The notes under the pieces are model-generated. The model was not told the origin of the DNA. It did no database searches and worked only from the letters and a program-made list of their open reading frames with translations. 64,000 nt of DNA from Nitrosomonas sp. (GTDB lineage Bacteria > Pseudomonadota > Gammaproteobacteria > Burkholderiales > Nitrosomonadaceae). Made by a program: the position numbers and the translations under genes. The DNA is taken from contig JAIETK010000003.1 in the NCBI GenBank assembly GCA_019745325.1, positions 1-64,000 on the forward strand, written 5' to 3'. Positions 22,272 through 39,041 of this stretch are shown here, piece after piece (positions within the stretch are counted from its first letter, which is position 1; each line of letters opens with the position of its first letter).

Positions 22272-24341
22272 ATGAACCTCAGACTTAGCAGCAATCGCTT
22301 CTCAAAAAGATTATCATTAACAATCATGGCATTAATGATTACATGGTTAGTCATTGGCATTTCCTGGCGTTTGTATGAATTACGCGACAGCGATACTGAT
22401 CGGGGAGCGATTACGAGCGGAACAGATAAATTCGGCGATCATTTTTCTCGAACCGTTTATCTTGATCAAGGTTGGTCAGCAGCCGATAGCCTGTGGTTCT
22501 ATACCGTCACGCAAGGCTCCAATTTATTGCCGTACAGCTTTTTTCTAGCACTTGAACAAGCGGATTCCACGGCATTGTTTCGCAGCAATGAAAATATGGA
22601 TCGTTACGGTTATCTGCCGCAGCGGCCAACCGCCAGCAATCCGGACGGCCTTCCTGCCGGTATGGTGCGTGATGACTATCAAGGTAAAGCTTATATGGGA
22701 TTCACTTGCGCGGCTTGCCACACCACTCAGATCAATTATCAAAGCACTGGCATTCGCATCGACGGTGGCCCCGCAAATTCCGATATGGAAACCTTCATGG
22801 TTGATCTGGCAACCGCCATGCAGGTTACATTGGAAAACCCTGAAAAACGTGACCGTTTCGTGGCTAATGTATTGAAGCATGGCCATTACAACAACGCCAG
22901 CGACATCCTGGCCGATCTCACGAAATACGCGCAGCGCATTAAAACATACACCATTGTCAACTCCCCGCGGGATAGCAAACGTCCGCTGACGCGTTATGGT
23001 TACGCCCGGCTGGATGCATTTGGCCGTATTTATAATCGTGTGTTGGAACATATTATGAGCGCGCAACAACTGCGCGAATTGCTGGCGGACATTCTGTCCG
23101 AGGATGAACTGACAACGGTTATGTTCAATGTTGAACCGGTTTTAAGCAGCCATGATCGCGATCACATCATTGAGAAAATTCAAGATTATCTGACCAGCAA
23201 GCAACTCATCCGGTTACGCAACAAAATCTATAACCCGGCCGACGCGCCTGTCAGTTATCCGTTCCTTTGGGATGTTCCGCAGCACGACTATATTCAATGG
23301 AATGGCCGGGTCGACAATAGCGGACTAGGACCGATGGCCCGCAACGCCGGGCAGGTCATCGGCGTTTTCGCGACATTGGATTGGCAGGAGAAGGACGGTT
23401 TCACTTTATCTTCGGTATTGGGCGGACAAGGATTCGGCGCTAAACATATCGATTTCCAATCCTCGATCGATATCCGTAATTTGCGCCGGGTGGAAAACCA
23501 TTTACGCAAATTGACATCCCCACGATGGCCTGAGCATATCCTACCGCACCTCGATAAGGCGCGGATGGCAAGAGGCGCGGAAATTTATTCGAAATACTGC
23601 GCCGTTTGTCACGAGCTTATCAAGCATAACGACCCGGAACGGCGGGTTGTCGCTAGAATGATTTCGGTTTCATCAGTCGGAACGGATTCAAAAATGGCCA
23701 CAAATGCAGTTGAATTTCTCGGGTATAGCGGTATCTTGAGAAATCAGTATGTCGGCGTCAGCACAGGAAATATCTTATTGCAGCAACAAGCGCCTGCTGT
23801 GGCATTGTTAACGGCGGCAACCCGCAACGTCGTCACCACTCCCGATAGCGATAAATGGATTATCCGCCGGTGGCTCGAGCGGTCTTTCGATTTTGCTTAC
23901 ACCTTTTTTGATAACGAAGTGCAATCATCGCTGAAGAATGGCTACTATACCCCCGACAGCACCGTTTCTCCTTTTGCGTCGGCAATGGCCTATAAGGCCC
24001 GGCCTCTGAACGGTATCTGGGCTACCGCGCCTTATTTGCATAACGGTTCTGTTCCAACGCTCTATGATTTGCTATTGCCTAAAAAGCGTCCCGGCGATCC
24101 TGCTGACGGTGAATATCGGCCGGACGAATTCATGACCGGCTCGCGTGAATTCGATCCGGAAAAAGTTGGTTTTAAGACATCAGGATACCCGGGATTTTTA
24201 TTCCGTACCCATATCTGGGGTAATCATAACGAGGGCCATGAGTATGCATCCGGCCGGACGCCGCTGCCCGACGGCTCCATTCTGCCGGTATTGAATAGAG
24301 AACAGCGATTGGATTTGATTGAGTTTCTTAAATCGCTTTGA
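22272..24341 (+). CDS. RoxA-like di-heme c-type cytochrome (cytochrome c peroxidase/MauG superfamily)
   Basis: A 689-aa exported protein with an N-terminal anchor or signal at about 14-31 and two covalent heme sites, C146-A-A-C-H150 and C443-A-V-C-H447. Length, heme spacing and the C-terminal block (KARPLNGIWATAPYLHNGSVPTLYDLL, then GYPGFLFRTHIWGNHNEGHEY) match the RoxA/RoxB branch of di-heme peroxidases rather than the 350-aa CcpA type. RoxA itself is a rubber dioxygenase, but most relatives have no known substrate, so only periplasmic redox or oxygenase activity is proposed. It is divergent from the efflux operon. Confidence 0.85.
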   Translation: MNLRLSSNRFSKRLSLTIMALMITWLVIGISWRLYELRDSDTDRGAITSGTDKFGDHFSRTVYLDQGWSAADSLWFYTVTQGSNLLPYSFFLALEQADSTALFRSNENMDRYGYLPQRPTASNPDGLPAGMVRDDYQGKAYMGFTCAACHTTQINYQSTGIRIDGGPANSDMETFMVDLATAMQVTLENPEKRDRFVANVLKHGHYNNASDILADLTKYAQRIKTYTIVNSPRDSKRPLTRYGYARLDAFGRIYNRVLEHIMSAQQLRELLADILSEDELTTVMFNVEPVLSSHDRDHIIEKIQDYLTSKQLIRLRNKIYNPADAPVSYPFLWDVPQHDYIQWNGRVDNSGLGPMARNAGQVIGVFATLDWQEKDGFTLSSVLGGQGFGAKHIDFQSSIDIRNLRRVENHLRKLTSPRWPEHILPHLDKARMARGAEIYSKYCAVCHELIKHNDPERRVVARMISVSSVGTDSKMATNAVEFLGYSGILRNQYVGVSTGNILLQQQAPAVALLTAATRNVVTTPDSDKWIIRRWLERSFDFAYTFFDNEVQSSLKNGYYTPDSTVSPFASAMAYKARPLNGIWATAPYLHNGSVPTLYDLLLPKKRPGDPADGEYRPDEFMTGSREFDPEKVGFKTSGYPGFLFRTHIWGNHNEGHEYASGRTPLPDGSILPVLNREQRLDLIEFLKSL

Positions 24342-24370
24342 TGAATTTACAGAAAATGACTGGGTTTGTT

Positions 24371-24787
24371 TCAGCGGGGTAGATTTTTGAACAGCGATCG
24401 CGCTTTCCATTGATGCAGCAGCAACGCCAAGATCCAGCTTCCCAGGGACCATACGACTTCTGCTTGTTCAATCGTTTCTTCCACAGTTTCTTCGAGAGCA
24501 ATGCTTTTTCCAGCGGGAATAATTTGGAGCCGGTTATTAGCCGCAAAATCCATAATGAATTGGTAGTGTGTTTTGTTGATACTGCTTAACGAAGTCCGCA
24601 CTCGAACAGCCGCCTTGCTCTCAAAAATAACCGGTTGTGCATAATCGGAATACTCCCAGCGCCCCTTATCGTTATAGCTTGCAAGCGCTCCGCAAAGCCT
24701 TTCCGTCCAGTCACTTGGACGGAATATCCGGCCTTCTGAAGTAATTCCCAAAATCAGCCACTCTTCTGTCGTTATTTTCATCTTCAA
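24371..24787 (-). CDS. DUF3579 family protein
   Basis: A 138-aa cytoplasmic protein whose first 100 residues match the DUF3579 pattern (LILGITSEGRIFRPSDWTERLCGALA, then DYAQPVIFESKAAVRV and YQFIMDFAANNRLQI). The family is largely beta-proteobacterial and has no known function. The C-terminal 40 residues (EETVEETIEQAEVVW and a hydrophobic stretch) are less typical. It converges on the cytochrome gene with 29 bases between. Confidence 0.8.
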   Translation of the reverse strand: MKMKITTEEWLILGITSEGRIFRPSDWTERLCGALASYNDKGRWEYSDYAQPVIFESKAAVRVRTSLSSINKTHYQFIMDFAANNRLQIIPAGKSIALEETVEETIEQAEVVWSLGSWILALLLHQWKARSLFKNLPR

Positions 24788-25057
24788 TATTCGCAGTATC
24801 TAAGAAACATGAAAGGAGACAGCATCGCTTGAATTTTCCTTTTAAATACGGATATTTATTTCGGCAACATCGGTAAAAAATTTATAGCTGTTAACAAGCA
24901 GCACTAGCACCCCCGGAATTAATCAAGAAAAATAAAATCTGATTACCACATTGCCAAAATTGCGTAGGTACGATCAAACCCGGTTGAGAAGAAATTCTGA
25001 AAAATAGCTAAAATGTCCAATAGACGCGTCAATTTTTTAATCCCATCGCATTCACCC
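24788..25057. other. AT-rich divergent promoter gap
   Basis: This gap holds the upstream regions of the DUF3579 gene (leftward) and the aminopeptidase gene (rightward). No repeat, hairpin or clear promoter could be singled out. An in-frame ATG at 25013 is an alternative start for the aminopeptidase. Confidence 0.3.
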
Positions 25058-26155
25058 ATGAACGTGGTATCTCGAAATTTCAGTCATTTCAGATTCGTCA
25101 TTACCCTAGTCTCCGTTACCTGGCTCAGTGCATGCGCGAATCTTCCTTATTATGCGCAAGCGATCGACGGACATCTGGAAGTTCTGCGTCGAGCGCAACC
25201 AATCAGTACCATTATCGAAAATCCGGATACCGATCAGAATTTAAAAAATTCGCTAACCAAAATCGTTCAGTTGCGGAAATTTGCGAGCCGTGAATTAAAA
25301 TTGCCGGATAACCGGAGTTACACAAGCTATGCAAATCTGGAACGCCCCTTTGTCGTCTGGAATGTTTTCGCATCCCCGGAATTGTCCCTTCAGCTTAAAG
25401 AATGGTGCTTTCTGAAAGTTGGCTGTGTGAATTACCGTGGCTTTTTTTCTCAAGCCAAGGCGGAACGCTACGCGGAAGAACTCAGGAATGAAGGCTATGA
25501 TGTCCACGTCGGCGGAGTTCGCGCCTATTCGACGTTGGGCTGGTTCAGTGATCCGGTTCTCAATACTTTCATCAGCTATTCTGAAATAAATCTGGCACGG
25601 TTGATTTTTCATGAGCTGGCGCATCAAGTTGTTTATGTGCCTGGCGACACCGTCTTCAACGAATCTTTTGCAACGGCGGTCGAACAAGAAGGCATTAAGC
25701 GCTGGTTCGCTCATAGCGGTACCGTTCTGCAACAATCCGCATTAAACGCCCGGCGGGAACGGGAAACAATTTTCACCGATCTGATTTTCAAACACCGTAA
25801 GCACTTACAGGATTTATTCCAATCGGACCTCAGCGAAGCAGAAAAGCGTGCCGGGAAAGCACGGATATTTGATGAATTGCGCGGAGAATTCGCTGACTTG
25901 AAAACAAATGATCCGGAACTCAGTCTCTATGATTCATGGTTCTCCCAGCCTTTGAATAATGCATTACTGGCGACGGTTTCGATTTATTCTCAATTGGTGC
26001 CGGCATTTCAGGCAATTCTTGTACAAAACGACCAGGACATGAATAAATTTTTTGATGCCGTCACAAAAATTAGTAAACTTCCCAAAGAAGAAAGAAATTC
26101 TGTCCTACAGAAAGCTACTGAAGACCACCGACGATGGACGATGGTCGAACGTTAA
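25058..26155 (+). CDS. Predicted zinc aminopeptidase lipoprotein (COG4324 type)
   Basis: An exported putative metallopeptidase, about 365 aa. The chosen start gives a lipoprotein signal ending WLSAC; the ATG 45 bases upstream would add 15 residues, and neither has a clear ribosome-binding site. The zinc-binding motif IFHELAHQ (HExxH) is followed by the downstream glutamate region NESFATAVEQEG. The family is labelled aminopeptidase by homology only. It lies 64 bases upstream of the chromate transporter in the same direction, but a link is not obvious. Confidence 0.85.
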   Translation: MNVVSRNFSHFRFVITLVSVTWLSACANLPYYAQAIDGHLEVLRRAQPISTIIENPDTDQNLKNSLTKIVQLRKFASRELKLPDNRSYTSYANLERPFVVWNVFASPELSLQLKEWCFLKVGCVNYRGFFSQAKAERYAEELRNEGYDVHVGGVRAYSTLGWFSDPVLNTFISYSEINLARLIFHELAHQVVYVPGDTVFNESFATAVEQEGIKRWFAHSGTVLQQSALNARRERETIFTDLIFKHRKHLQDLFQSDLSEAEKRAGKARIFDELRGEFADLKTNDPELSLYDSWFSQPLNNALLATVSIYSQLVPAFQAILVQNDQDMNKFFDAVTKISKLPKEERNSVLQKATEDHRRWTMVER

Positions 26156-26219
26156 TCCCCCGCCTCTGCCAATCGGGGCCGCATTTTGGCAGTTATCGCA
26201 AACTCATTGAAGGAACTTA

Positions 26220-27581
26220 ATGTCTGAAACGACCGAGCATGCCCCCGCTCCACCTGCCCCGGTATCCTTTTGGGAAGCATTCCGGTATTGGCTTAAGCTC
26301 GGTTTCATCAGTTTCGGCGGGCCAGCCGGCCAAATCAGCTTGATGCATCAAGAATTGGTCGAACGACGGCGTTGGATTTCTGAACAACGCTTTATGCATG
26401 CGTTGAATTATACGATGGTATTACCCGGCCCGGAGGCTCAGCAATTGGCGATTTACATCGGCTGGCTGATGCATGGCACTTGGGGCGGAATTGTTGCCGG
26501 CACGTTATTTGTATTACCGTCTCTGTTCATTTTAATGGCTCTGACATGGATATACTTAATTTACAGCGAGATTCCAGCGGTTGCCGGAATTTTGTACGGT
26601 ATCAAACCCGCGGTAACCGCCATTATTATTTTCGCGGCTTATCGTATCGGTTCCAGAGCTTTAAGAAACAACCTATTGCGTATTATCGCAATATTAGCCT
26701 TTGTCGCGATCTTTGTTTTTGATCTTCCCTTTCCTTACATCGTGTTGTCGGCTGGTTTGATTGGTTATACCGGCGCTCATTTTATGCCGGATAAATTTCA
26801 GGCCGGCAAGCACGCTATCGATTCAAGCCATAGCTACGGCCCCGCAGTAATCGATAACAATACACCGGTTCCCGAACACGCTCGCTTCAAATGGAGCCGT
26901 TTCATTGTCTTTGCGTTGACCGGACTCTCAAGCTGGTTCGCAGTAATGTCTCTGTTAGCCGTTCAATTTGACTGGGATGGCACCTTGACACAAATGGGTT
27001 GGTTTTTCACCAAAGCAGCCTTAATGACATTTGGCGGCGCTTATGCAGTCTTGCCATATGTTTTTCAAGGCGGCGTCGAGCACTACGCTTGGTTGAGCGC
27101 AACGCAAATGATCGATGGATTGGCTTTGGGTGAAACAACGCCGGGACCGCTCATCATGATTGTTGCTTTTGTAGGATTCGTCGGCGGCTGGACAAAAGCG
27201 CTCTTTGGAGGGGATTTACTGTATCTGGCAGGTATTGCCGGTGCAATTACTGCAACATTTTTTACGTTTCTACCGTCTTTTCTTTTTATCTTGCTGGGCG
27301 CTCCCGCAGTCGAAGCTACCCGGCACGACATCAAATTCACAGCGCCGCTGACCGGCATCACCGCGGCCGTGGTCGGTGTTATTGTGAATCTGGCGGTTTT
27401 CTTTGCTTACCATGTTCTCTGGCCAAACGGTTTTGGAGGGTCATTTGAATGGTTTTCGGCCGTGATCGGTATCCTGACATTCTTTGCCTTATTCAAATTC
27501 AAAGTTGGAATTGTGACCGCCATCTGCGCCTGTGCAACTGTAGGATTTGGGTATTCCATTTTACTAACACATATCAGTTGA
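26220..27581 (+). CDS. chrA: Chromate transporter ChrA
   Basis: A CHR-family inner-membrane transporter of 453 aa with two homologous halves. The first starts WEAFRYWLKLGFISFGGPAGQISLMH and the second FFTKAALMTFGGAYAVLPYV; both carry the family's FGGPxxQ/FGGAY signature, and GLALGETTPGPLIM is the second-half Pro-Gly motif. It exports chromate, giving resistance. A good Shine-Dalgarno (GAAGGAAC) precedes the ATG. The neighbouring efflux pump and oxidase suggest a metal-stress region. Confidence 0.93.
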   Translation: MSETTEHAPAPPAPVSFWEAFRYWLKLGFISFGGPAGQISLMHQELVERRRWISEQRFMHALNYTMVLPGPEAQQLAIYIGWLMHGTWGGIVAGTLFVLPSLFILMALTWIYLIYSEIPAVAGILYGIKPAVTAIIIFAAYRIGSRALRNNLLRIIAILAFVAIFVFDLPFPYIVLSAGLIGYTGAHFMPDKFQAGKHAIDSSHSYGPAVIDNNTPVPEHARFKWSRFIVFALTGLSSWFAVMSLLAVQFDWDGTLTQMGWFFTKAALMTFGGAYAVLPYVFQGGVEHYAWLSATQMIDGLALGETTPGPLIMIVAFVGFVGGWTKALFGGDLLYLAGIAGAITATFFTFLPSFLFILLGAPAVEATRHDIKFTAPLTGITAAVVGVIVNLAVFFAYHVLWPNGFGGSFEWFSAVIGILTFFALFKFKVGIVTAICACATVGFGYSILLTHIS

Positions 27582-27640
27582 AACCGGATTGCAAAATCTA
27601 TTTTTATCCGATATCGAGCAACCCGCACGGCTAACGACAT

Positions 27641-27667
27641 TAAAGAAACTTAATTTTAATTCGTTAA
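27641..27667 (+). promoter_or_regulatory. Candidate sigma-28 (FliA) promoter for the flagellinolysin gene
   Basis: TAAA, then exactly 15 bases, then TTCGTTAA resembles the flagellar class-3 consensus TAAA-N15-GCCGATAA. The spacing is exact and five of eight bases match in the -10 part. It ends 31 bases before the flagellin start codon, a typical place. Confidence 0.5.
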
Positions 27668-27698
27668 TTAGCGATACTTATGTTGCTATCAAAAGAAA

Positions 27699-29420
27699 AT
27701 GGCTTTATCGATTAATACAAATTTGGGTGCGCTGAATACTTCACGGTATTTGTCGGCAACCACCACGGATCTTAGCCGCTCCTTAGAGCGGCTATCATCG
27801 GGTATACGTATTAATAGCGCTAGAGACGATGCGGCCGGTCTCGCGATTTCAGAGCGAATGACCGCTCAGATACGCGGCTTGACTCAAGCCACCAGAAATG
27901 CCAATGATGGAATTTCGATGCTGCAAACAGCTGATGGCGCATTGACTTCCATGACTTCCTCATTGCAGCGTATTCGTGAATTATCCATCCAAGCTGCCAA
28001 CTCAACCAATAGCCTTGCCGACAAAAAAGCGCTTCAGGAAGAAGCCAATCAGCTGATCCAAGAATTAGAAAAGGTTTCGACGACCAGCATCTTTAACGGC
28101 GATAAAATTTTCGACTTTTCCGGAAGCAGTGTTCTCGGCGATTCCAATCAGTTAGCGGTAGTCTACGGACTGCAGTATGGTTGGCTCGAAGAAGCGGAAA
28201 ATATGATACAGCAGTATTTTGGAATTTCTGCGGATGGCGCTGATATGAATATCGAACTGACGACTTTCACCGACGGCGCCGGTGGTACTGCGGCCCGGGT
28301 TGTCGGTTCAATACCCGGCACTTACACAGGTAAAGCAACGGATGTTAAGCTCCAAATTGATATGAGCGATTTTACACCGCCTAATTTGCCAAACGGTGGC
28401 ACTGCGCCATTTTACAACGATCGTATTATTGCGCATGAAATGGTGCACGCCGTGATGTACCGCAGCATGAATATCGGTTCAATGTTCAATCCAGTAGTCG
28501 ATCAAACCTGGTTTCTGGAAGGTGCCGCCGAATTTATTCATGGCGCCGATGAACGTTTGCAATCCTCGATTGGTAGTGTCGGTATCGGTGGTGTTATGGC
28601 TAGAGCCGCAACTTTTGGTTCAGCAGGCGCAGCCTGGGGAGGGTCATCGGATGATTATTCCGCCGCTTATTCAGCAGTCCGTTACTTGCACCAAGTCATC
28701 AAAGATAACGGCGGTTCCGGTATCAGCGATGTTATGGTTTATTTGAACCAGAATCAGAGCGCCACCTTAAGCGATGCGATCAGTGCCGCTACCAGCGGTC
28801 TGTATGCAAACGCCGACGCTTTTAATGCAGACTTTGTTGCAAATGGCGCAGCCTATATTGCAAGTATGAACCTTACCGACAGCGATACCGGAGCAATTGG
28901 CGGTTCGAATGCCGATGGCGGCTCCGTTAAAACTGCTGAAAGCGTTGTCGCTGATACCGGTTCACGTGGCGGAACCAATCCAACCAGCGGATTCAATGAA
29001 ATCTGGGAAGACATCGAAGCAGCAACATTCGGAAACAACAAGCGTTTGCAAGTCGGTGCAAATAAAGCCGACACCCTGGATATCAGCATGGGCGCAGTCA
29101 ACACGGGGGCACTCAGTATTCAAGATCTGGATTTGATCAACAATGCCGGATTCACGACTTTTAAGGTTGATCTGGCGCTCAATCACATTAACGAAGAGCG
29201 ATCGAAAATCGGCGCACAATTAAACCGTTTGCAGTCAGTCATCAACAATAATCAAACCAGCGTGGAGTCGGCGGTTGCCAGCAAGTCACGAATACAAGAT
29301 ACCGACTATGCTGTTGAAACAACTTCGCTCACAAAAACACAAATCATGCAACAAGCTGCCACTGCGGTGCTAGCACAGGCAAATTCTTCCCCGCAAATGC
29401 TATTAGCGCTGCTTTCTTGA
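27699..29420 (+). CDS. Flagellinolysin: flagellin with an inserted zinc metalloprotease domain
   Basis: A 573-aa protein. Residues 1 to about 145 are a canonical flagellin N-terminus (MALSINTNLGALNTSRYL, LSSGIRINSARDDAAGLAIS) and about 475-573 a flagellin C-terminus (ending LAQANSSPQMLLALLS). The variable central region, normally exposed on the filament, holds a gluzincin-type protease domain with H246-E-M-V-H250 and the third ligand region WFLEGAAEF, E274, 28 residues after the catalytic E247. This architecture matches the reported flagellinolysin family, whose filaments are proteolytic. No other flagellar gene is adjacent. Confidence 0.92.
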   Translation: MALSINTNLGALNTSRYLSATTTDLSRSLERLSSGIRINSARDDAAGLAISERMTAQIRGLTQATRNANDGISMLQTADGALTSMTSSLQRIRELSIQAANSTNSLADKKALQEEANQLIQELEKVSTTSIFNGDKIFDFSGSSVLGDSNQLAVVYGLQYGWLEEAENMIQQYFGISADGADMNIELTTFTDGAGGTAARVVGSIPGTYTGKATDVKLQIDMSDFTPPNLPNGGTAPFYNDRIIAHEMVHAVMYRSMNIGSMFNPVVDQTWFLEGAAEFIHGADERLQSSIGSVGIGGVMARAATFGSAGAAWGGSSDDYSAAYSAVRYLHQVIKDNGGSGISDVMVYLNQNQSATLSDAISAATSGLYANADAFNADFVANGAAYIASMNLTDSDTGAIGGSNADGGSVKTAESVVADTGSRGGTNPTSGFNEIWEDIEAATFGNNKRLQVGANKADTLDISMGAVNTGALSIQDLDLINNAGFTTFKVDLALNHINEERSKIGAQLNRLQSVINNNQTSVESAVASKSRIQDTDYAVETTSLTKTQIMQQAATAVLAQANSSPQMLLALLS

Positions 29421-29604
29421 TTCACCCGTTTTCGGCATCCCGCCTTCTGTATCCAGAAATTTTCTAACACTCAATCACTTAAGCATAAAGTAGATTACTT
29501 GTCATGTTTGAACTGATACACTGATTATTGTGTTTCAGATAAATCATGCGCTGCGTTGTTGGTCGCGTACAGTTTTTATCTCACTGATGGATAGGAGATT
29601 AATC

Positions 29605-31227
29605 ATGACAAATATTAATTATAAAAGACGTCAATTCATACAATACGCAGCAGCAAGCACACTTGCCGCAACAATCCCGGAATTGAGTTTTGCAAGAACG
29701 CAAGGAAGCAACATGACACCCAATCCTTCGTTCAAAGCCGATGTAGAAATCGCACTGAATGCTCAAACTGCCGATGTTTCCATTTTGCCCGGTCCGCTCA
29801 CGCATGTCTTTAAATACACTGGCAAACTGCTCAAAGGACCTTCATCTACGCTCAAAGAGTTGCCGGGTTATTTAGGCCCTATTCTTAATTTCGAGCGAGG
29901 TCAGAAAGTTCGAATCTATTTCAGCAACCAATTGCCGGAGCCCTGCATTACGCACTGGCACGGCATGCATGTTCCTCAGCCGATGGACGGGCATCCGATG
30001 TATGCCATTCACCGGGACGAACAGTATATCTATGAATTTGAGGTAGCCAACCCTGCTGGAACCAATTGGTATCATTCGCATACCCACGAATTAACCGCGC
30101 CGCAAGTTTATCAAGGCTTAGCAGGACTTATCACGGTATCCGATGAAATTGAACGGAAATTAGGCCTGCCCAGCGGCGAATTCGATGTCCCGCTAATCAT
30201 TCAGGATCGCAGCTTCTCCAGCAATAATCAACTTCGCTACATTCTAGGCATGCACCAAAGAATGCGGGGTTTTCATGGGGATGTCATTCTAGTGAACGGA
30301 CAGAAAGACTATTCCATTCCAGTAAAAACCAGAGCCTATCGCTTGCGCATTTTGAATGGATCTAACGCAAGGATTTATAAACTCGGCTGGAGCGATGGCA
30401 CACCGGTTACAGCAATTGCTACCGACGGCGGTTTACTGGAAAAGCCGCAAAACTTGCCCTATGTGATGCTTGCTCCGGCTGAACGTATAGAGTTGTGGAT
30501 TGATTTCAGCGGCCGCGAACCGGGTTCTGATGTCACGTTGCAGAGCTTGGTTTTTGGCGACTCATCTCATATGGAAAGCGGCATGCGGGGAGGGATGCGC
30601 CGTGGCATGGGAGGCGGCGGGATGGGCATGATGGGTGCTGCCTTTGGTCAGGATGAAGCAATCACCATCGCAAAATTCCAGATTACCGAACAGATCGGCG
30701 ACTCGCCGAAGTTACCGGAAACATTAGTCTCCATGCCTCGTTTCACGCTTCAAGATGTCACCCATTCTGACAGAATCGTTCCAATCGCCATCGGCATGCG
30801 GCATATGTCGTTCCAGCTAAACGGCAGAACATTCGACATGTACGACTACATGGAAACTGAGAAAATTCCGGTTAATACCATTCAGAGAATCAAGATATTT
30901 CACGACAACCTGGGAATGGGCGGCGGCATGCGCCGCGGCGGACGCGGTGGAGGCATGGGGATGATGATGTCGATACCTCATCCCATCCATTTACATGGCC
31001 AGCAGTTTCAGATCCTCTCGCGGACGCAAATACATCAGGATAGCGGTTACGAAACTGTGAAACACGGTTTTATCAACAGCGGTTGGAAAGATACCGTTTT
31101 GGTAATGCCCGGAGAAGAAATTGAGATTATCAAGCCATTCAATGATTTCAAAGGCTTTTTTCTTTACCATTGCCACAATCTCGAACACGAAGATATGGGT
31201 ATGATGCGAAATTTCTATGTTAGCTGA
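29605..31227 (+). CDS. Tat-exported Met-rich multicopper oxidase
   Basis: A periplasmic laccase-like oxidase, 540 aa. The start MTNINYKRRQF is preceded by a good Shine-Dalgarno (TAGGAGA) and gives a twin-arginine signal; a longer frame upstream is rejected. All four copper motifs are present: HWHG (about 117), HSH (about 157), HPIHLHG, and HCHNLEHEDMGM with the type-1 Cys, two His and an axial Met. Two Gly-Met-Arg-rich loops (GGMRRGMGGGGMGMMG and GGGMRRGGRGGGMGMMM) resemble the Met-rich segments that bind Cu(I) in CueO-type oxidases. A copper-detoxifying role is likely. Confidence 0.93.
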   Translation: MTNINYKRRQFIQYAAASTLAATIPELSFARTQGSNMTPNPSFKADVEIALNAQTADVSILPGPLTHVFKYTGKLLKGPSSTLKELPGYLGPILNFERGQKVRIYFSNQLPEPCITHWHGMHVPQPMDGHPMYAIHRDEQYIYEFEVANPAGTNWYHSHTHELTAPQVYQGLAGLITVSDEIERKLGLPSGEFDVPLIIQDRSFSSNNQLRYILGMHQRMRGFHGDVILVNGQKDYSIPVKTRAYRLRILNGSNARIYKLGWSDGTPVTAIATDGGLLEKPQNLPYVMLAPAERIELWIDFSGREPGSDVTLQSLVFGDSSHMESGMRGGMRRGMGGGGMGMMGAAFGQDEAITIAKFQITEQIGDSPKLPETLVSMPRFTLQDVTHSDRIVPIAIGMRHMSFQLNGRTFDMYDYMETEKIPVNTIQRIKIFHDNLGMGGGMRRGGRGGGMGMMMSIPHPIHLHGQQFQILSRTQIHQDSGYETVKHGFINSGWKDTVLVMPGEEIEIIKPFNDFKGFFLYHCHNLEHEDMGMMRNFYVS

Positions 31228-31244
31228 AGTGTGAGAACTTTCAA

Positions 31245-31942
31245 GATTTCTCTTCAGCTTATCATATTGTGTCGCAATTGCCCGATACTGTTTTAACCGG
31301 GCAAAAGCATTCTCCACCAAATGCCGGTATCTGTATAAGCTCCAATCCATATCTTCATTACCCTCCAGCGAGTTGCGCTTTCCCGGTATTACAACCTAAG
31401 CTCCTTGCTCCGTTATCTGCTCGCGCATACACTCACTGTCATAGCCCTTGTCCGCAACAATCGTCTTCGCGTCAGGCAGCCTGGCTATCAAATTAGGTGC
31501 TGCGGAGCAGTCATTGACTGCTCCGCCGGTGATTTCAAACTCAACTGGCAAGCCATGACCATCGACCGCAAAATGGATCTTTGTGGTATTGCCCGCACGG
31601 CTTTTCCCGATGGCTTGCGATTGTTGGCCTGCCGCTCCCGTATTATGCTGGTTGCCTTGACATAGCTGCCATCAAAAATTCCCACTCCCAATCCAGATCA
31701 ATAGTCAACGCCTTGAAAATCCTTAACCATTTGCTGCTAAACGACCACACGTTGAATCTTTTATAGATGGAATTCCAGCAACCGAACGCCTCAGGCAGAT
31801 CTCGCCACGGGCAACCTACACGCATTCGATACAGTATGCCTTCTACTGTCATACGCAGATTGCGCTTGTTATAAATCGCTTCTTGAAACAGAATCTTCTC
31901 CAGCTTCGACCAGAACTCATCATTGAGCATCAATCGGGGCAT
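31245..31942 (-). pseudogene. Decayed IS5-family transposase
   Basis: The N-terminal part (MPRLMLNDEFWSKLEKILF, GCPWRDLPEAFG) and the DDE part (DGSYVKA, SQAIGKSRAGNTTKIHFAVD, ADKGYDSE, then DMDWSLYRYRHLVENAFARL) lie on the minus strand in different frames. After DGSYVKA a single-base loss shifts the frame. A TAG stops it in ITEQGA*VVIPG. The last 15 or so residues after YDKLKRN are missing, 20-odd bases from the multicopper oxidase stop. The element is dead; its terminal repeats were not clearly identified. Confidence 0.85.
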
Positions 31943-32231
31943 CACAAACTCGTTTTGTTGTTGGTATAGGAACCTCAATATTACGAGTTTGCTTCTTTCT
32001 ATGAAATACTTATCTCTAAATGCCAACAGATTCTATAGTGTGGCAGGAAGGAAATAATACAGGACAAGTGTACTACTTAATCAGTAGTAATATCCTATAT
32101 ATTTCCTATCCGATTGGACTTATCTTCTTGATAGATATTAAACAACCAGTTTCTAATTTTTCAGTTTTTTAATATCGGCAGAAGGAAACTAGCTTCTGTA
32201 ATTATAAAATTCTCAAAGGGGGCAATACATT

Positions 32232-32867
32232 ATGCGTACTTTAATGATTATGAGTTTACTTGCTTTGACAAGTGGTCCGGTTGCCGCTGCGTCTTGGCAA
32301 ATTGGTGATAACGATGGATATGGCATTGGCATTTGCGACAATTGTTCTCACCCATTTAATGGTGCTACGGCAAATTTTGATGGTAGAAGCGCAGCGGAAA
32401 TGGCGGCAACCGATGGTGCGCAATATACTGATACTTATAGCACTACGCATCCCGGTTACAGCCCGCATGGCTCTGAAACTGTAGCCACATTCCATTTCAC
32501 TGGACTGGGAAGCGGATGGGCTTTAGGCCATTTGGAAATTGATATGGCTGATTTTCAAGCAACTGCGTTTGGCCCAGTCATAACAACATTTAATGGCATC
32601 GTGCAAGACTTTTCGTATAACGATGGTTTCCCGAATACGTTGATCCATTACTATACATTGACGGGCGCTGTGCTTGATTCAATCAATGCCACGGGAGAAT
32701 TGACAATTGTTGTTGACCGCAACGCATCAGTAGATTTTTATGGTTTTGACTATCTAAAACTAAGTGATGTAGCAGCACCACCAGTACCAGAACCCGAAAC
32801 CTATGTCATGTTATTGATGGGTTTAGGATTATTGGGATTTTCATTACGCAATAAAAAACTAGCTTAG
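32232..32867 (+). CDS. PEP-CTERM-anchored exported protein
   Basis: A 211-aa protein with a signal peptide (MRTLMIMSLLALTSGPVAAA) and a classic C-terminal sorting signal: VPEPETYVMLLMGLGLLGFS followed by a basic tail (RNKKLA). Such proteins are processed by an exosortase and usually linked to exopolysaccharide export; the exosortase is not in this window. The body is Gly/Asp/Thr-rich and looks beta-structured (DNCSHPFNGATANFDG, ATFHFTGLGSGWALGHLEID). A ribosome-binding site AAAGGGGG precedes the ATG. The function of the body is unknown. Confidence 0.88.
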   Translation: MRTLMIMSLLALTSGPVAAASWQIGDNDGYGIGICDNCSHPFNGATANFDGRSAAEMAATDGAQYTDTYSTTHPGYSPHGSETVATFHFTGLGSGWALGHLEIDMADFQATAFGPVITTFNGIVQDFSYNDGFPNTLIHYYTLTGAVLDSINATGELTIVVDRNASVDFYGFDYLKLSDVAAPPVPEPETYVMLLMGLGLLGFSLRNKKLA

Positions 32868-32877
32868 TAATAACCCC

Positions 32878-32906
32878 AAAACTGCCTGGTTTTACCGGGC
32901 AGTTTT
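32878..32906 (+). terminator. Rho-independent terminator after the PEP-CTERM gene
   Basis: AAAACTGCCTGG (32878-32889) pairs with CCGGGCAGTTTT (32895-32906), a 12-bp stem with one G-T pair and a 5-nt loop, ending in a T-run. It lies 10 bases after the PEP-CTERM stop codon and may serve both strands. Confidence 0.9.
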
Positions 32907-32909
32907 CAT

Positions 32910-33172
32910 TTAACCGTTTGTATCCGACATTACCTCAATCAGCGGAAAGCAAGTTTTTCTCAATGTTTCATACTGAATCACTACTCGTTGCGCGTCTGCG
33001 GCAAGCTCCCAAAGATCCTGTTCAATCTGACCGGGAAGTCTGATTCTTTCGGCTCCGTCACCGGAGATTCCGGCACTCTGAGTTTCTTTTATTGCTCCAG
33101 CGGCACGATCTGCACAGTTCTGGGCGTCGATCCACAGCCCGCGAATACCAGCGAAATTATTATTAAGAGACC
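32910..33172 (-). pseudogene. Frameshifted remnant of an Rz1/LysC-like spanin lipoprotein
   Basis: In one minus frame the sequence reads LLIIISLVFAGCGSTPRTVQ and continues IVPLEQ to a TAA at 33089-33091, a lipobox (FAGC) and TPR-TVQIVP pattern typical of phage outer-membrane spanins. Another frame then reads RLPGQIEQDLWELAADAQ and QYETLRKTC to 32910, resembling the helical tail of such spanins. There is no start codon in the lipoprotein frame. The upstream edge is GAGACCTTTGCAAAA-like sequence that could be an insertion-element end. An intact 89-codon frame from a TTG spans the region but mixes the two frames' content. Confidence 0.4.
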
Positions 33173-33282
33173 TTTGCAAAATGACGCAAATTTGCCATTT
33201 CAGAGTAACTTCGGATTAATCTGTGAAGAGATTGGTTAGTTGTAGTCATTTTTTCGCAAATAAGCCAAGAATAATATGAGAG

Positions 33283-33420
33283 AAACACTGATTAATAAGT
33301 ACACAAGCGGACTGCCTTGTTGCGCGGCACTCGCTCCCTCGCCTATCTGATTGATTTGTCTCGGTCACTGCGTTCCGTGCGCCTCGCCCTTCATCGCATT
33401 CGCCGAATTAATCAGCGCTT
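33283..33420 (+). repeat. MITE-like 138-bp repeat, copy 2
   Basis: Ends AAACACTGATTAAT (33283-33296) and ATTAATCAGCGCTT (33407-33420) are the same terminal inverted repeats as copy 1, the left one with two changes. The interior aligns with copy 1 (CGCCTATCTGATTGATTTG, GCGTTCCGTGCGCCTCG, TTCATCGCATTCGCCG). It lies between the spanin remnant and the response-regulator gene. Confidence 0.8.
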
Positions 33421-33448
33421 CCTTGAAAGAACTTAACGCGAAACAAAC

Positions 33449-35089
33449 TTAAACAAGTCCATTCAATGACGCCATCAATCGTTTAAAGCGGGGTTCTCCC
33501 GGAGATAGTTCGTTTGCCGCCGTAAGGCTGTTGCGCGCTTCCTCAACGAGGTCGGGTACGGAGCCGTTTTTTTGTATATAGGCAACAATTACATGCGCCA
33601 AATTCAATAATACCCGTACATTGGTCGGCATTGCGGCACGAGCTTCGCGCATTGCACCAAGCGCTTCTTCGTATTGTCCTTTACTAACCAGCAGTACCCC
33701 GCGATTCATCACGAGCATCGCTTCCTGGCGGGTGGATTCGATCAGTTGGCTGCCTTCCTCTTGCATCCCGGCTTGCTCGAATATTTCTGAAACATCTTTA
33801 TGCAAAGCCGTGTTCTCCGGATTATTCTTGATTTCGCTTTGCAACAATCGAATCGCTTTTTCCTTATCCCCAGCAACAAGCAATAAATGAGCGACTTCCA
33901 GCGATTCCTCGCTGGTTAAAGGACGCTCATCCTGGTTAGGCAATGATTGATCCAACTCTAAAGCGATCTGCGCGGCTTTCTCCACGTCACCGCTCTGATG
34001 GTGAATTATTCCCGCTGCAGCCAAAGCCCTGCGGCGAACATCATCACCGTTAAAATTCTTGGTAAGCTGTCCCAACACTCTCAGCGCTTCATCAGGATTT
34101 TTCTTTGTGCCGCATACTTTGACCAGCCCAAGATAACTATCCGCTTTCTTCAAAGCTGAGTTTTCACCCAGTGCAATACTTTTACGGAACGCACGTTCGG
34201 CATTTTCCAGCTTTCCAATTTTTAAAGATAAGCTCCCCAAATTCTGTTGCCGCATTACAGAATTGGGTGACAATTTGGTTGCGCGTTCCAGCACATCATT
34301 CGCACCTTCCAAATCATCCATCGCCTGTAGCGTTTGCGCCAGGAGATCATGGGCTTCAATATATGCCGGATTGAGTTCGATGGTTTCCTCCAACAGGGTC
34401 TTAGCTTGATCCCATTCATTCTTTTTGAGAAAAATTCTTGCCAACGCTACCTTGCTCCATGGTAACTCGCGCTTTGAGAGAATTTCTTCCAACAAATTCT
34501 GGGCTCGATCCAGCTCTCCCGTCATCCCTAGTAAATTGCATTTCGTGCGCAGTAAATCGAAGGTATTCGCTTTATCGGATACCAGTTTTTGATCACATAA
34601 ATTCAATGCTTCATCATAATTCGAACGCTTGATCGCCTGGTGAATCTCGGCAAAAACTTTCTTTCTCACCCAGATCTTTTCCAGCCGTGTGCATAAACTC
34701 ATTTCCGTAACCGGCTTAATCAAATACGCATCGGGTTGAAATTCCGCTGCACCGGTAACAGCTTCCGCGGCTTTCTCGGCGGAAATCATTACCCACAAAC
34801 AAGAAGAATCTACAAGCGAAAGATACTTCGCTTCCTCAAGCACTTGCTGACCATTTTTTCCCGCACCTAATACTAGATCGCACAAAACCACATCAAATTG
34901 CACTTTCTTCAGTATCGCAATGGCTTCTTCTCCCGTCGCAACCATATGCATTTTCTTAACATCGGCGCCGAGATTGCGAAAAATATCGCGCAAGATTGTA
35001 CGCATCTCCTGATAGTCATCGACAATCAGAATATTCTTTCCGGATAGATTCAAACTAACGGGAGAAAAATTGATAGAGCTCGTTATCAT
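33449..35089 (-). CDS. Response regulator with a receiver domain and TPR repeats
   Basis: Of 546 residues, about 15-135 form a CheY-like receiver with acidic D24/D25, phosphoacceptor D71 (DVVLCDLVLG) and K125 (YLIKP). The rest, about 150-546, is a series of TPR-like helix pairs (DRAQNLLEEILS, DQAKTLLEETIELNPAYIEAHDLL, NAERAFRKSIALG, EEALGAMREARAAMP). There is no DNA-binding or enzymatic output domain, so it should signal through protein contacts. It lies 21 bases after a histidine kinase on the same strand and is probably its partner; both follow the metallophore cluster. Confidence 0.9.
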   Translation of the reverse strand: MITSSINFSPVSLNLSGKNILIVDDYQEMRTILRDIFRNLGADVKKMHMVATGEEAIAILKKVQFDVVLCDLVLGAGKNGQQVLEEAKYLSLVDSSCLWVMISAEKAAEAVTGAAEFQPDAYLIKPVTEMSLCTRLEKIWVRKKVFAEIHQAIKRSNYDEALNLCDQKLVSDKANTFDLLRTKCNLLGMTGELDRAQNLLEEILSKRELPWSKVALARIFLKKNEWDQAKTLLEETIELNPAYIEAHDLLAQTLQAMDDLEGANDVLERATKLSPNSVMRQQNLGSLSLKIGKLENAERAFRKSIALGENSALKKADSYLGLVKVCGTKKNPDEALRVLGQLTKNFNGDDVRRRALAAAGIIHHQSGDVEKAAQIALELDQSLPNQDERPLTSEESLEVAHLLLVAGDKEKAIRLLQSEIKNNPENTALHKDVSEIFEQAGMQEEGSQLIESTRQEAMLVMNRGVLLVSKGQYEEALGAMREARAAMPTNVRVLLNLAHVIVAYIQKNGSVPDLVEEARNSLTAANELSPGEPRFKRLMASLNGLV

Positions 35090-35110
35090 GGTTTCAGATC
35101 TTGAAATTTA

Positions 35111-35833
35111 TTAAGGAAGAAACAGGAGAAAGCAAGCACCTTTCATAGGACCGCCGTTTTCCAGCTTCAATTTCCCGGACACTCCCTGGTTCCGATGCAT
35201 CCGCGCAACCTTGTCCGAAAAATAAAAACCCAATCCAGTGCTATTTTCCAAAGGATCTACGCGGCGCATTGAATCATAGCTGTCCTGCAGCATTGCAACC
35301 GGATAGCCGCGCCCATTGTCTTCTATACGCAGCAACAATTGCCCATTCTGTTCTTCGGCGGCAATGCGAATACAATCCCGGGTATAACGGATTGCATTAT
35401 TGATGGCATTGCCGACAACCGCATTGATCAAATCCTCGTCAAAGTACCAATGCAACTCCGGATCGACATGGGCTTCCAGGGTAATTTGACGGAATTGCAG
35501 CAAATCGGAATATTGCGCAACGATCCCGGCTATAAAATCCCTCAAACTGACATATTGCACATCAAAAGGATAGACTCTTTGGCCGACTTTATAGAGCGTC
35601 AACAATTGAACCAGGCTATTGTTAACGCGTTTTGCTTCGGCATTCACTCGCACCAGTTCAGCATGCGCGGCAAGTTGACTTGCATCGGCATTTGCCAGCG
35701 TTTTTTCCAGGCTGTTCAATAACAGGCACACCGAATTTTTCGTATCGTGAATCGAAGAAACCAGGAAATTCATCAGATCCGGTTCAACGGGGAGGTTACC
35801 CGTGTCCGGGTTATTGTTCTCAGATAGGCTCAT
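35111..35833 (-). CDS. Sensor histidine kinase without transmembrane segments
   Basis: About 240 aa from the ATG (MSLSENNN); a TTG start 45 bases further upstream is possible, and neither has a clear ribosome-binding site. The likely phosphoacceptor is in VSSIHDTKNSVCLLL, where HDTKN replaces the usual H-E/D-x-x-N/P context. The HATPase_c domain shows the N box (NAVVGNAINNAIRYT), G1 (IEDNGRGYP) and G2 (STGLGFYFSDKVAR). No sensor domain or membrane helix is present, so it must receive its signal in the cytoplasm or from a partner. It pairs with the downstream TPR response regulator. Confidence 0.85.
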   Translation of the reverse strand: MSLSENNNPDTGNLPVEPDLMNFLVSSIHDTKNSVCLLLNSLEKTLANADASQLAAHAELVRVNAEAKRVNNSLVQLLTLYKVGQRVYPFDVQYVSLRDFIAGIVAQYSDLLQFRQITLEAHVDPELHWYFDEDLINAVVGNAINNAIRYTRDCIRIAAEEQNGQLLLRIEDNGRGYPVAMLQDSYDSMRRVDPLENSTGLGFYFSDKVARMHRNQGVSGKLKLENGGPMKGACFLLFLP

Positions 35834-35931
35834 TTTGATATGCCGCAAACCAGCGTCCTCATCATTTTTCTTACGCAACTTAACGGCAAGACACCCTGAA
35901 TCTGTAGTTTTACAATCAAAATCAGAGAGTT

Positions 35932-36717
35932 CTATGGCAAACGATAAACTACTCCACGTTTCCTGAGATCGTTCAGAATTTGAATACCACCCTGAACAAC
36001 CGTCTCGGGTTGCGGGTGGTTCATTTCTGCGGCTACTTGATGCAACAACGTCAAACCGGATTTGGCGGCACTCTCACCGGCCAAATGCAGCAAGCGCGCT
36101 GTTATTTTATTAATCTCAATAAATTGCACATTAAAATCCTGATCCCGGTAAACGATCAGATTCGTCTTTGATGCGTCAGCTCTATCGGGCTGAAAATCCG
36201 GAGTTATCCGGTGGACAGGAAACGAGTAGCCGAGTACCCATGCCAACGGCGAAATTGCCGGAACTCCCTCCAGTAAATCGCCAGCAGAATCCGTTGCGGC
36301 TTCCGTCATGCTTTCATCGAAGATAGCGAGCGCGAGTTCCACCCACTCATAGTGCGCCAATTCAAACAGAAAAGGCGGATCATCAGCACAGGGTTTCCGC
36401 TCGGATTCGAGGTATTTCAAAAACTCCCGGGGTATCTCCGGAAACAACGGGGTATGCGACACATGATGGGCGAAATAATCCCGGATGAGTGCATGCCAAT
36501 GGCTATCGGGCATAATCTTCCGTAACACTGGAAAGGTATTGGCAATTAAATCCTCCACGTTGTTATAAAACAATTCGCAGTAGATTTTCATGCGCCGTTC
36601 CTCCACACCTTGTGGATGCGGTTTCTTTTCCGGGTCACGAATGTGCGCTGCAAATGCATATTGCTGCCGCACAAAATCCGGCCGGTCAGGCGTGTTGTAA
36701 GTAACCGCCGGCTTCAT
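35932..36717 (-). CDS. bufC: DUF2063 partner protein of an MNIO RiPP enzyme (BufC/HvfC type)
   Basis: A 261-aa protein of the DUF2063 'putative DNA-binding' family, in fact the usual partner of DUF692 enzymes. Visible are the N-terminal helical domain ([39 protein letters not shown]) and [13 protein letters not shown], then a beta-rich C-terminal half. In studied systems this protein delivers the precursor peptide to the oxidase. Its start overlaps the end of the oxidase gene by 32 bases, indicating tight coupling. The gene name is by cluster analogy. Confidence 0.9.
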
Positions 36718-37552
36718 TGCGCCATTTGGTTTGAAGAGAATGAATCGTTGCTACCTCACGCAACAAATCGGCAATCGGTGGAATATTGAAATCGCGCTCA
36801 AGCAAGGTTGGAATAACACCCAAGCGCTGGTAGGTTTTATCGAGCAATTGCCATACCGGATCGATGACATCGGCACCGTGCGTATCGACGATCAGATCGG
36901 CTGCTTCCTGATAGTGTCCAGCCACATGAAGATAGCGGATACGCTCCGCCGGCAAGCGCAGCAGAAATGCCTCGGCGTCGTAATCGTGGTTGATGCTGTT
37001 GACATAAATATTATTCACATCCAATAGCAAATCGCAATCGGCTTCCTGCAGTATCGCGTTGATGAAGTCGGCTTCCTCCAACTGCTTTCCAGGCGCCGCA
37101 TAATAAGAAACATTCTCGATTGCGATACGTTGTTCAAGGATTTCTTGAACGCGCCGGATCCGGCTTGCTACATAAAAAACCGCTTCTTCGGTAAACGGGA
37201 TTGGCAGCAAATCGTATAAATGACCGTCATCGCTGCAATAACTTAAATGCTCGCTGTAAGTGCGGATATGATGATCTTTCAGGAAACGCTTGAGCTTGTG
37301 CAAGAAAGCTTCGTCAAGCGGTGACGGACCGCCGATCGACAACGAAAGTCCGTGGCAGATAAAAGGAAATCGCTCGGTTAGCTGTCGAAATTGGTGGCCG
37401 TACCGGCCACCGACACCAATCCAGTTTTCCGGAGCCACTTCCCAGAAATCGACGGATTGCGTGGCCTGATCCGTCAGCGAGCTCAGCATCGAACGCCGCA
37501 GACCCAGGCCCGCGCCATGAACAGGAAATGATCGGCTGCTCATGGGTTGCAT
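36686..37552 (-). CDS. bufB: DUF692 multinuclear non-heme iron oxidase (MNIO), BufB/HvfB type
   Basis: A TIM-barrel-like iron enzyme of 288 aa that modifies cysteines in a ribosomal peptide. Conserved metal-ligand regions are visible: [59 protein letters not shown] and DTHGADV. In characterised members the enzyme turns Cys of EGKCG motifs into oxazolone/thioamide or thiooxazole groups that bind copper. It starts 3 bases after the precursor gene and overlaps the partner gene, so all three form one operon. Confidence 0.93.
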
Positions 37553-37555
37553 TGG

Positions 37556-37894
37556 TTACTTTTTAGAAGAACCGCATTTGCCTTCGCCGCATTTACCTTC
37601 TTGTTCGGCCTTCTTACCGCCGCACTTGCCTTCCATGTTTTGCTTCATCTCGGTTTTGCCGCCACACTTGCCTTCGCCGCATTTACCTTCCATATTTTGT
37701 TTGGATTCTTTACCGCCTTCTTGCGCCGGTTTATTGGCGCTGCTGGCATCGGCCAGTTGCATGTAACCGCCGGATAATTCATTCATCGCAAACGGATTGG
37801 CGCTGCTATCCGCCAGCAAATCACCGGCACCAAGACTGGTGACCAATGCAGCGCTAACCGCGAGTGAAACTGGTTTAACTGATTTTTTCGACAT
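37556..37894 (-). CDS. bufA: EGKCG-repeat RiPP metallophore precursor (BufA/HvfA type)
   Basis: A 112-aa exported precursor. Residues 1 to about 29 form a signal peptide (LAVSAALVTSLGAGDLLA). A conserved leader-like NPFAMNELSGGYMQLAD lies at about 33-49. The C-terminal core is low-complexity, with five EGKCG motifs bearing all five cysteines (C72, C77, C91, C102, C107), in the pattern EGKCGEGKCG, EGKCGG, EGKCGEGKCG. These cysteines are the expected targets of the adjacent MNIO enzyme. The mature product would be a periplasmic or secreted copper-binding peptide. Confidence 0.92.
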   Translation of the reverse strand: MSKKSVKPVSLAVSAALVTSLGAGDLLADSSANPFAMNELSGGYMQLADASSANKPAQEGGKESKQNMEGKCGEGKCGGKTEMKQNMEGKCGGKKAEQEGKCGEGKCGSSKK

Positions 37895-37960
37895 CTTTTA
37901 TCTCCATAAAAAATTAAAACAACGACAATCGATGATGATAACGCCGAATTAAAACAAAGG

Positions 37961-38099
37961 AAACGCTTATCAATTCACCGGGCAAGATGAGATGCAAGGC
38001 GGATGAAGCGCAAGGAACGAGATATATCAATGCGATAGACAAGTTTCTGAGCACCGCCCAACGCAGCAAATCGCTTGCGCGGACAATTAATCAATGCTT
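37961..38099 (-). repeat. MITE-like 139-bp repeat, copy 3 (inverted, diverged)
   Basis: The ends AAACGCTTATCAAT (37961-37974) and ATTAATCAATGCTT (38086-38099) are degenerate forms of the terminal repeats of copies 1 and 2. Read on the minus strand the interior aligns with them (TTGCTGCGTTGGGCGGTGCTC, TATCGCATTGATATATCTCG, CTTGCGCTTCATCCGCC). It sits between the precursor gene and an orphan gene. Confidence 0.7.
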
Positions 38100-38197
38100 C
38101 CCTATCCTATCTTTCTTTTTTTGAATGCGCCTCTCTGATAAACTCAGCGCTTCGAAAATTATTATAAAAATACGCCTGCTAACTTAAGGAGTTCCGA

Positions 38198-38920
38198 ATG
38201 TTTGACAAACCTAACCAGATTATTTTTTACATCAACATCGTCATGCTTGCCTTTGGTGTGTTCGTCGCACTGGCGACCGATTTCATAGCGATCGGATTGA
38301 TTTTTGCTCTTTGCGCCGCGCTGCTGATCGCCGACCAAATCAGACAAAACAAGTTTGCATTTTCCATCTCGGATTTAAGAAAAATACTGACCGTGCATGA
38401 TACCTGCGGAAAAAAAGCAACTGTGACACAAACACAAATGACCACCGCATGCCATAGCGATAATTCAGAATACTGGTTCAAAAATATCCGCGCCATCGGC
38501 AGCATCAGCAATTTCCGCATCAATAATGGCGATCCGGCTGAACAAAGAAAAGAAAACGACAGCTACCATGTCTGCATGAAATTCCCGCCTGAGTTGAAAG
38601 TGATTGACGGTTCCGATTTAACTTTGACGTATCAATGCGAAGGTGCTTTCACCCAAAACGAAGGCATACTGTCGCATGTCGTCGACGACGATACACAACG
38701 CTTGCACATGACCGTCGAACTGCCTTCAGGACGCGCCATTGCAACTGCGCGTTTTTTCTGCATCCATGACGGTAAAGAAGAAGCGTTATTGCCTCCCGTA
38801 ATCTCCGGAAACACAAAAATCGATGCGGAAGTGAAAAACCCGAAACGGGGCGCGGAATATTGCCTGCAGTGGAATTGGGAAGAAGAAGGTCTGCTGAAGA
38901 AAGTCAGTTGCCTTTTTTAG
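38198..38920 (+). CDS. Hypothetical membrane-anchored protein, 240 aa
   Basis: Unrecognised. A strong ribosome-binding site (TAAGGAG) precedes the ATG. Residues 8-50 contain two closely spaced hydrophobic segments (IIFYINIVMLAFGVFVALA and FIAIGLIFALCAALLIA). The remainder is soluble, mixed alpha/beta, with six cysteines in the soluble part (about 68, 82, 116, 136, 180, 212 and a terminal one near 238). The repeated pattern of beta strands with Cys could suggest disulfides if the domain is periplasmic, but the topology is not clear. A hairpin follows the gene. Confidence 0.7.
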   Translation: MFDKPNQIIFYINIVMLAFGVFVALATDFIAIGLIFALCAALLIADQIRQNKFAFSISDLRKILTVHDTCGKKATVTQTQMTTACHSDNSEYWFKNIRAIGSISNFRINNGDPAEQRKENDSYHVCMKFPPELKVIDGSDLTLTYQCEGAFTQNEGILSHVVDDDTQRLHMTVELPSGRAIATARFFCIHDGKEEALLPPVISGNTKIDAEVKNPKRGAEYCLQWNWEEEGLLKKVSCLF

Positions 38921-38969
38921 ATTGTCTTCCCTATCCAATTACACAGTCACAAAATTAAATCACTCGTAC

Positions 38970-38995
38970 CAGGCTGGATTGAAAAATCCAGCCTG
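38970..38995 (+). terminator. Hairpin after the orphan membrane protein gene
   Basis: CAGGCTGGATT (38970-38980) and AATCCAGCCTG (38985-38995) form a perfect 11-bp stem closed by a GAAA tetraloop. No T-run follows, so termination efficiency is uncertain, but its position 50 bases after the stop and before murJ fits a terminator. Confidence 0.55.
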
Positions 38996-39041
38996 CAGTT
39001 ATCACACCGTTGCCCACTACTAGCATCAATATCTCAAGCCG

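Follow-up and report, generated by a model that had tools for sequence, protein, structure and literature searches.

A flagellinolysin of mostly vertical descent in Nitrosomonas, a probable filament-borne metalloprotease kept under selection

Introduction

Why does an ammonia-oxidising bacterium carry a flagellin gene with a zinc-protease motif in its middle, and is the product likely to act as an enzyme on the flagellar filament? The question is raised by an open reading frame in a stretch of Nitrosomonas DNA of 64,000 nucleotides, here called the window. A preliminary description of this DNA had read the gene as a flagellinolysin transcribed from a sigma-28-like promoter, and had considered such a protein unexpected in an ammonia-oxidiser-like organism.

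The flagellinolysin family is scattered over bacteria (PMC5595980). For C. haemolyticum, filament assembly and filament-borne activity have been demonstrated, and the protease flagellin can account for as much as 10% of the filament subunits (PMC5595980). The isolated domain of the Hylemonella gracilis flagellinolysin, HgrFlaMP, has been tested biochemically; its cleavage sites precede large hydrophobic residues, and a recombinant flagellin is among the proteins it degrades (PMC7643111). Here we place the window gene in its family, compare it across the genus, and weigh what its product may do.

Results

Family and active site

The NCBIfam model NF033876 'flagellinolysin' matches residues 112-504 of the 573-residue product at E 5.9e-128, so the HExxH of this protein is no chance motif. 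H246, E247, H250 and E274, the four residues on which the preliminary description had built its reading, all stand where it placed them, and both flagellin ends, Flagellin_N at residues 5-139 and Flagellin_C at residues 489-572, score over their Pfam cut-offs (Table 1). The family model, the domain architecture and the catalytic residues together support the identification. Judged from its sequence, the gene product is a flagellinolysin, of a family already known and named by NCBI in Nitrosomonas; a Nitrosomonas protein 91% identical to it (P0005) carries the NCBI name "flagellinolysin" already. At a probability of about 0.9, we consider the product to be a second flagellin in which an M9-like gluzincin metalloprotease replaces the usual variable domain, and to form a filament-borne protease that is old, mostly vertically inherited and selectively kept.

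Table 1 Features of the flagellinolysin gene and its product in the window.
Feature	Position	Strand	Evidence
Sigma-28-like promoter element, TAAAGAAA-N11-TTCGTTAA	27641-27667	+	58 bases upstream of the start codon; conserved in the genus
Flagellinolysin gene	27699-29420	+	Open reading frame, ATG start, 573 aa; NF033876 score 427.6 bits, model cut-off 205
Flagellin_N domain, residues 5-139 (filament core)	27711-28115	+	PF00669 E 6e-41, over cut-off
Central exposed region with putative metalloprotease domain, residues 140-448	28116-29042	+	NF033876 match 112-504; profile match to solved M1 aminopeptidases; dN/dS
D221, candidate calcium ligand, positional counterpart of C. haemolyticum FliA(H) Asp206	28359-28361	+	D in 68/73 relatives
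HEMVH, residues 246-250: two predicted zinc-ligand histidines and predicted general base E247	28434-28448	+	H246, E247 and H250 in 73/73 aligned
E274-G-A-A277: predicted third zinc ligand and hydrophobic 'basement' alanine	28518-28529	+	E274 and A277 in 73/73; E274 aligned with the WLNEG glutamate of solved M1 peptidases
Y320, invariant tyrosine, candidate transition-state residue	28656-28658	+	73/73; in register with the tyrosine of YSKG in M1 aminopeptidases
Flagellin_C domain, residues 489-572 (filament core)	29163-29414	+	PF00700 E 3.1e-19, over cut-off

The host is an ammonia oxidiser, as had been suspected. Its assembly (3.02 Mb, rated 99.98% complete) contains an ammonia/methane monooxygenase subunit gene, and the closest named loci with a flagellinolysin gene are from Nitrosomonas, the nearest belonging to a Nitrosomonas sp. 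and being 91% identical.

Conservation of the active site was read from an alignment (A1, n = 73) of the window protein, 55 of 120 listed proteins and 17 loci, chosen from the search matches and excluding one broken copy (G055, see below). A search of solved structures with the product as single sequence gave no match at E ≤10. A profile of 18 protease regions, with identity to that of the window down to 30%, matched 40 distinct solved sequences at the same threshold. Of these, 37 are aminopeptidases (best E 3.6e-4) and one is the collagenase ColG (E 0.11); the other two, at E 0.022 and 0.52, are unrelated proteins. In the best profile alignments, HEMVH lies on HELVH or HELAH and WFxEG on WLNEG, and Y320 pairs with the YSKG tyrosine. 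In M1 enzymes, the residues of these motifs are the zinc ligands, the base and the transition-state tyrosine. H246, H250 and E274 therefore appear to fall in the zinc-ligand positions of solved gluzincins, the match being modest. The likeness to M1 gluzincin aminopeptidases (4kx7, 8sw0) consists of HExxH, WxxEG and YSKG in register, and the active-site core alone aligns; the M1 enzymes are exopeptidases with other domains.

We rejected membership of the M9 collagenases, because Peptidase_M9 (PF01752) matches residues 245-332 with only 19.2 bits, under the Pfam cut-off of 26. With the clostridial collagenase peptidase domain the product shares this weak sequence match and that to ColG (7z5u); it differs in its flagellin ends and may differ in the spacing of glycines. 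Collagenases have a double glycine about 30 residues upstream of HExxH; the product has none at that spacing, but G233-G234 lies nearer, as read from the sequence only.

PMC5595980 names the base, the basement alanine and all three ligands of flagellinolysin. The main text of that report contains 'tyr' once only, within a reference, so proposing Y320 as a candidate catalytic residue perhaps adds a little to that description. FliA(H) of C. haemolyticum shares with the window product the flagellin ends around a gluzincin domain, the HExxH and the basement alanine, and its third glutamate follows the second histidine by 25 residues, compared with 24 in the window product (PMC5595980). The calcium role of FliA(H) Asp206 is modelled (PMC5595980), and D221 matches this aspartate by position only, standing 25 residues before H246 where Asp206 stands 27 before His233, as judged by spacing.

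Selection on the protease region

We estimated dN/dS for 11 chosen pairs among 18 of the 21 full-length Nitrosomonas genes (573 codons). For residues 150-440 the ratio is 0.031-0.121 in 11/11 pairs; the N end gives 0.032-0.068 and the C end 0-0.114. The protease region is thus kept under strong selection, like the filament ends. Across 15 genomes, flagellinolysins have a mean pairwise identity of 85% at the N end, 85% in the centre, 72% over residues 441-488 and 78% at the C end. The ordinary flagellins, at 93% (N end), 80% (centre) and 92% (C end), are most variable in the centre; the ordinary flagellin of G029 was missed by the search expression, and that of G075 was cut by a contig end. A flagellin whose centre is as conserved as its ends agrees with the prediction of selection on the enzyme.

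The same values bear on whether the protein works in the filament. It could act mainly as a protease outside the filament, whether the flagellar apparatus secretes it or self-cleavage frees the domain; we regard this as unlikely. The H. gracilis flagellinolysin does self-cleave and its authors raise the secreted option (PMC7643111), and the lower conservation of residues 441-488, beside the domain, is what a loose linker would show. However, the constraint on both flagellin ends would be needless for a purely secreted enzyme, and the filaments of C. haemolyticum contain the full-length protein (PMC5595980).

Distribution and broken copies

NF033876 scores over its cut-off in 24/85 Nitrosomonas genomes and in 0/40 other genomes of the family Nitrosomonadaceae. 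Twenty-one of the 24 genes are full length, two are split across contigs (G052 and G020), and the remaining one (G055) is frame-broken with H250 changed. Below the cut-off, G017 retains residues 423-573 alone, with a stop, and G045 retains fragments at the same site. In two further genomes only the beginning of a gene is left before a contig end: 125 residues in G015 and, in G077, 81 residues of a flagellin 68% matching that of the window, so 24 carriers is a lower bound. With broken copies in three genomes, some of which may be errors of draft assemblies, and with several relatives lacking the gene, it seems dispensable in some settings. A protease flagellin is nevertheless not the surprise in an ammonia oxidiser that it had been taken for, given its presence in 24/85 genomes, its mostly vertical inheritance (see below) and the name it already bears in a Nitrosomonas record.

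These copies also speak to whether the centre might be a structural surface domain that keeps its zinc site without useful proteolysis. Among the 24 genes over the cut-off, 23 read HEMVH and WFxEG, and the G055 copy, with HEMVP, shows that an altered HExxH exists. But that copy is also frame-broken and no other Flagellin_N match was found in its genome, so it looks decaying (or reflects a draft-assembly error). HEMVH, WFxEG and the YS tyrosine are kept in 21/21 full-length Nitrosomonas copies, and E247 and Y320 are invariant in the alignment. A purely structural domain is, in our judgement, very improbable.

Descent and genomic site

The flagellinolysin tree comprised 22 carriers, the first piece of the G055 gene and 21 other picked rows, of which two from Spongiibacter (L009 and P0064) proved identical; the gene of G020 and the remnants of G017, G045, G015 and G077 were left out. 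The rpoB tree covered 74/85 genomes, leaving out seven without a match and four with only pieces. Nitrosomonas genes form one group in the flagellinolysin tree, except that the database proteins P0031 and P0033 fall inside it. Over the 21 genomes shared by the two trees, 15/18 splits are common (≤5 in 1000 label shuffles), and the three differing splits fall among close relatives. G032 was excluded from this comparison, its rpoB being on a very long branch and probably foreign. We note that this rpoB (L134) is probably from a contaminating organism, though the G032 flagellinolysin fits the genus. The presence of the gene on the rpoB tree, with G045, G015 and G077 scored as absent, requires at least 10 changes, compared with a shuffled mean near 20. 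Because 15/18 splits are shared with rpoB, the gene appears to have descended mostly vertically, with repeated loss, and transfers among close relatives may remain.

That this species alone acquired the gene recently by lateral transfer is hardly credible. The scattered family (PMC5595980), the isolated gene and the several relatives without it at the same site might suggest such an arrival, but the agreement with rpoB and the gene remnants that G017 and G045 keep at this site contradict it. An older transfer, into an ancestor inside the genus or preceding it, may have taken place.

No flagellar gene was found among the 12 neighbours scanned (22272-40577). The gene adjoins a multicopper oxidase gene in the window and in 12/19 other widely read carrier loci, and these 13 form one clade of the flagellinolysin tree. 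A PF10023 gene and a chromate transporter gene precede it, as in the window, in 8/12 of these loci; the multicopper oxidase comes first in G029 and G075, and the PF10023 and chromate transporter genes were not found in the stretch read in G042 and G057. None of the three neighbours lies within the stretch read in the remaining seven carrier loci; in G012 the neighbours are presumably threonine synthase and homoserine dehydrogenase. The oxidase locus was also read in eight non-carriers. G059, G061, G074, G078, G023 and G084 join the PF10023 gene and the oxidase with no trace of flagellinolysin between them; in G037 and G076 the stretch read contained no PF10023 gene. The PF10023 gene, the chromate transporter and the multicopper oxidase were considered as needed partners and rejected, since they occur together without a flagellinolysin gene in other genomes.

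Several neighbours in the window are described here in their own right. The PF10023 putative aminopeptidase (25013-26155, +), two genes upstream, has its own HExxH (HELAH) and also occurs where flagellinolysin is absent. The multicopper oxidase (29530-31227, +) has matches in 83/85 genomes (E ≤0.001, often several); some of its close copies (G035, G033 and G076) have one in-frame stop in the aligned stretch, perhaps because the start codon in the window is placed too far upstream. An IS4/5-type transposase piece with a DUF4096 match (31643-32026, -) and an open reading frame whose start reads like a transposase tail, with no Pfam match (30991-31350, -), probably form a decayed insertion element beside the oxidase (30991-32026, -). 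Further along, a MbnB/TglH/ChrH-family enzyme (36686-37552, -), a DUF2063 protein (35932-36717, -) and, just upstream, a 112-residue open reading frame with repeated GKCGEGKCG-like motifs (37556-37894, -) look like a copper-related RiPP operon (35932-37894, -), which we take to be bufferin-like.

Ordinary flagellin and promoter

When the genome of the window was searched for other flagellins, an ordinary flagellin of 483 residues was found elsewhere, flanked by genes that we take to be FlaG, FliD and FliS. A third Flagellin_N match resembles FlgL, and FliA and FlhA are also encoded elsewhere in the genome. An ordinary flagellin is likewise present in 21/21 full-length flagellinolysin carriers, which makes a mixed filament likeliest. 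Flagellinolysin as the only flagellin of G048 and G051, with one match each, was considered and rejected, as an ordinary flagellin was found in both. An intact flagellinolysin occurs in 0/15 genomes without an ordinary flagellin and in 22/68 genomes having one (chance 0.006, uncorrected for kinship, with G020 and G077 excluded as unclear); eight of the 15 have no Flagellin_N match, five have FlgL-like matches only, G068 has weak matches only, and G055 has the broken copy only.

Upstream of the start codon, the form TAAAGAA(A/T)-N11-NTCGTTAA occurs at -56 to -62 in 13/13 genes of the clade of the window, found with a search expression that was written after the sequences had been inspected. The 13 genes are related, so the conservation is partly kinship. 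A matrix built from them found a similar site at -62 to -66 in 5/8 held-out genes (≤28 of 1000 single-base shuffles, which preserve base make-up only); it failed in G001, G051 and G047, of which G047 fits with a 12-base spacer. Scored against the E. coli sigma-28 consensus, the best upstream site is another than the conserved element and reaches 11/16, equalled in 50/200 shuffles, which is not significant. Among the 17 flagellinolysin genes scored in this way, which omits four rows that the matrix test included, only G070 (6/200 shuffles) and G047 (7/200) are low, whereas 10/18 ordinary flagellins score strongly (14/16, 0/200 shuffles). The ordinary flagellin of the same genome carries TAAACTTT-N11-TCCGATAA. 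The sigma-28-like promoter of the preliminary description thus stands as a variant element conserved across the genus, while the gene's own best site against the E. coli consensus is no better than chance. A weaker element at the flagellinolysin gene would suit a minor subunit.

Discussion

Among the papers searched we found none linking flagellinolysin or proteolytic flagellin to Nitrosomonas or ammonia oxidisers; 'nitroso' is absent from the main texts of PMC5595980 and PMC7643111, and the species table of PMC5595980 may include Nitrosomonas. As far as this search reaches, three findings are apparently new: that ammonia oxidisers have passed the gene down vertically, that its protease is under constraint, and that an element upstream of it is conserved. 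FliA(H) is encoded inside a flagellar gene cluster (PMC7643111), whereas the window gene is solitary, belongs to an ammonia oxidiser and has descended vertically across a genus. HgrFlaMP shares the architecture and a location away from flagellar genes in a Gram-negative host, a member of the Comamonadaceae (PMC7643111).

From these comparisons we infer expression, assembly, activity and substrate as follows. The gene would be expressed late in flagellar assembly from the sigma-28-like promoter, and its product would be exported via the flagellar channel. Co-polymerised through its intact ends as a minority subunit among ordinary flagellins, it would place many active sites on the filament surface. 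With E247 as the base, a zinc ion bound by H246, H250 and E274 would activate water, and external proteins would be cut, before large hydrophobic residues by analogy with the two tested relatives. The activity of the C. haemolyticum and H. gracilis proteins may, on the same analogy, extend to Nitrosomonas. The likeliest use would be local cutting of matrix or neighbour proteins, foreign flagella included, in aggregates and biofilms.

Flagellin was unexpressed in N. europaea and made up 0.006% in N. ureae under the conditions used (PMC5960693). Filaments may be rare, because these proteomics saw little or no flagellin in two Nitrosomonas. Expression of flagellar genes goes up when N. mobilis begins to aggregate (PMC7308568), so a role in aggregates is worth testing.

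Of the two characterised flagellinolysins, one belongs to an animal pathogen and the other to a freshwater bacterium, and infection or nutrition could account for them. H. gracilis is a heterotroph, and Nitrosomonas are autotrophs, which do not live on protein. With somewhat less than even confidence, we suggest that the genus Nitrosomonas had filaments bearing this protease from its ancestor onwards and that selection has maintained them. Their role in these autotrophs would then not be mainly nutritional and would point to matrix remodelling, aggregate dispersal or attack on the flagella or surface proteins of neighbours. In this ammonia-oxidising lineage the protease is kept under strong selection, yet some members have lost it, so that carriers can be set against close non-carriers to look for a function other than nutrition in the biofilms and aggregates of nitrifiers.
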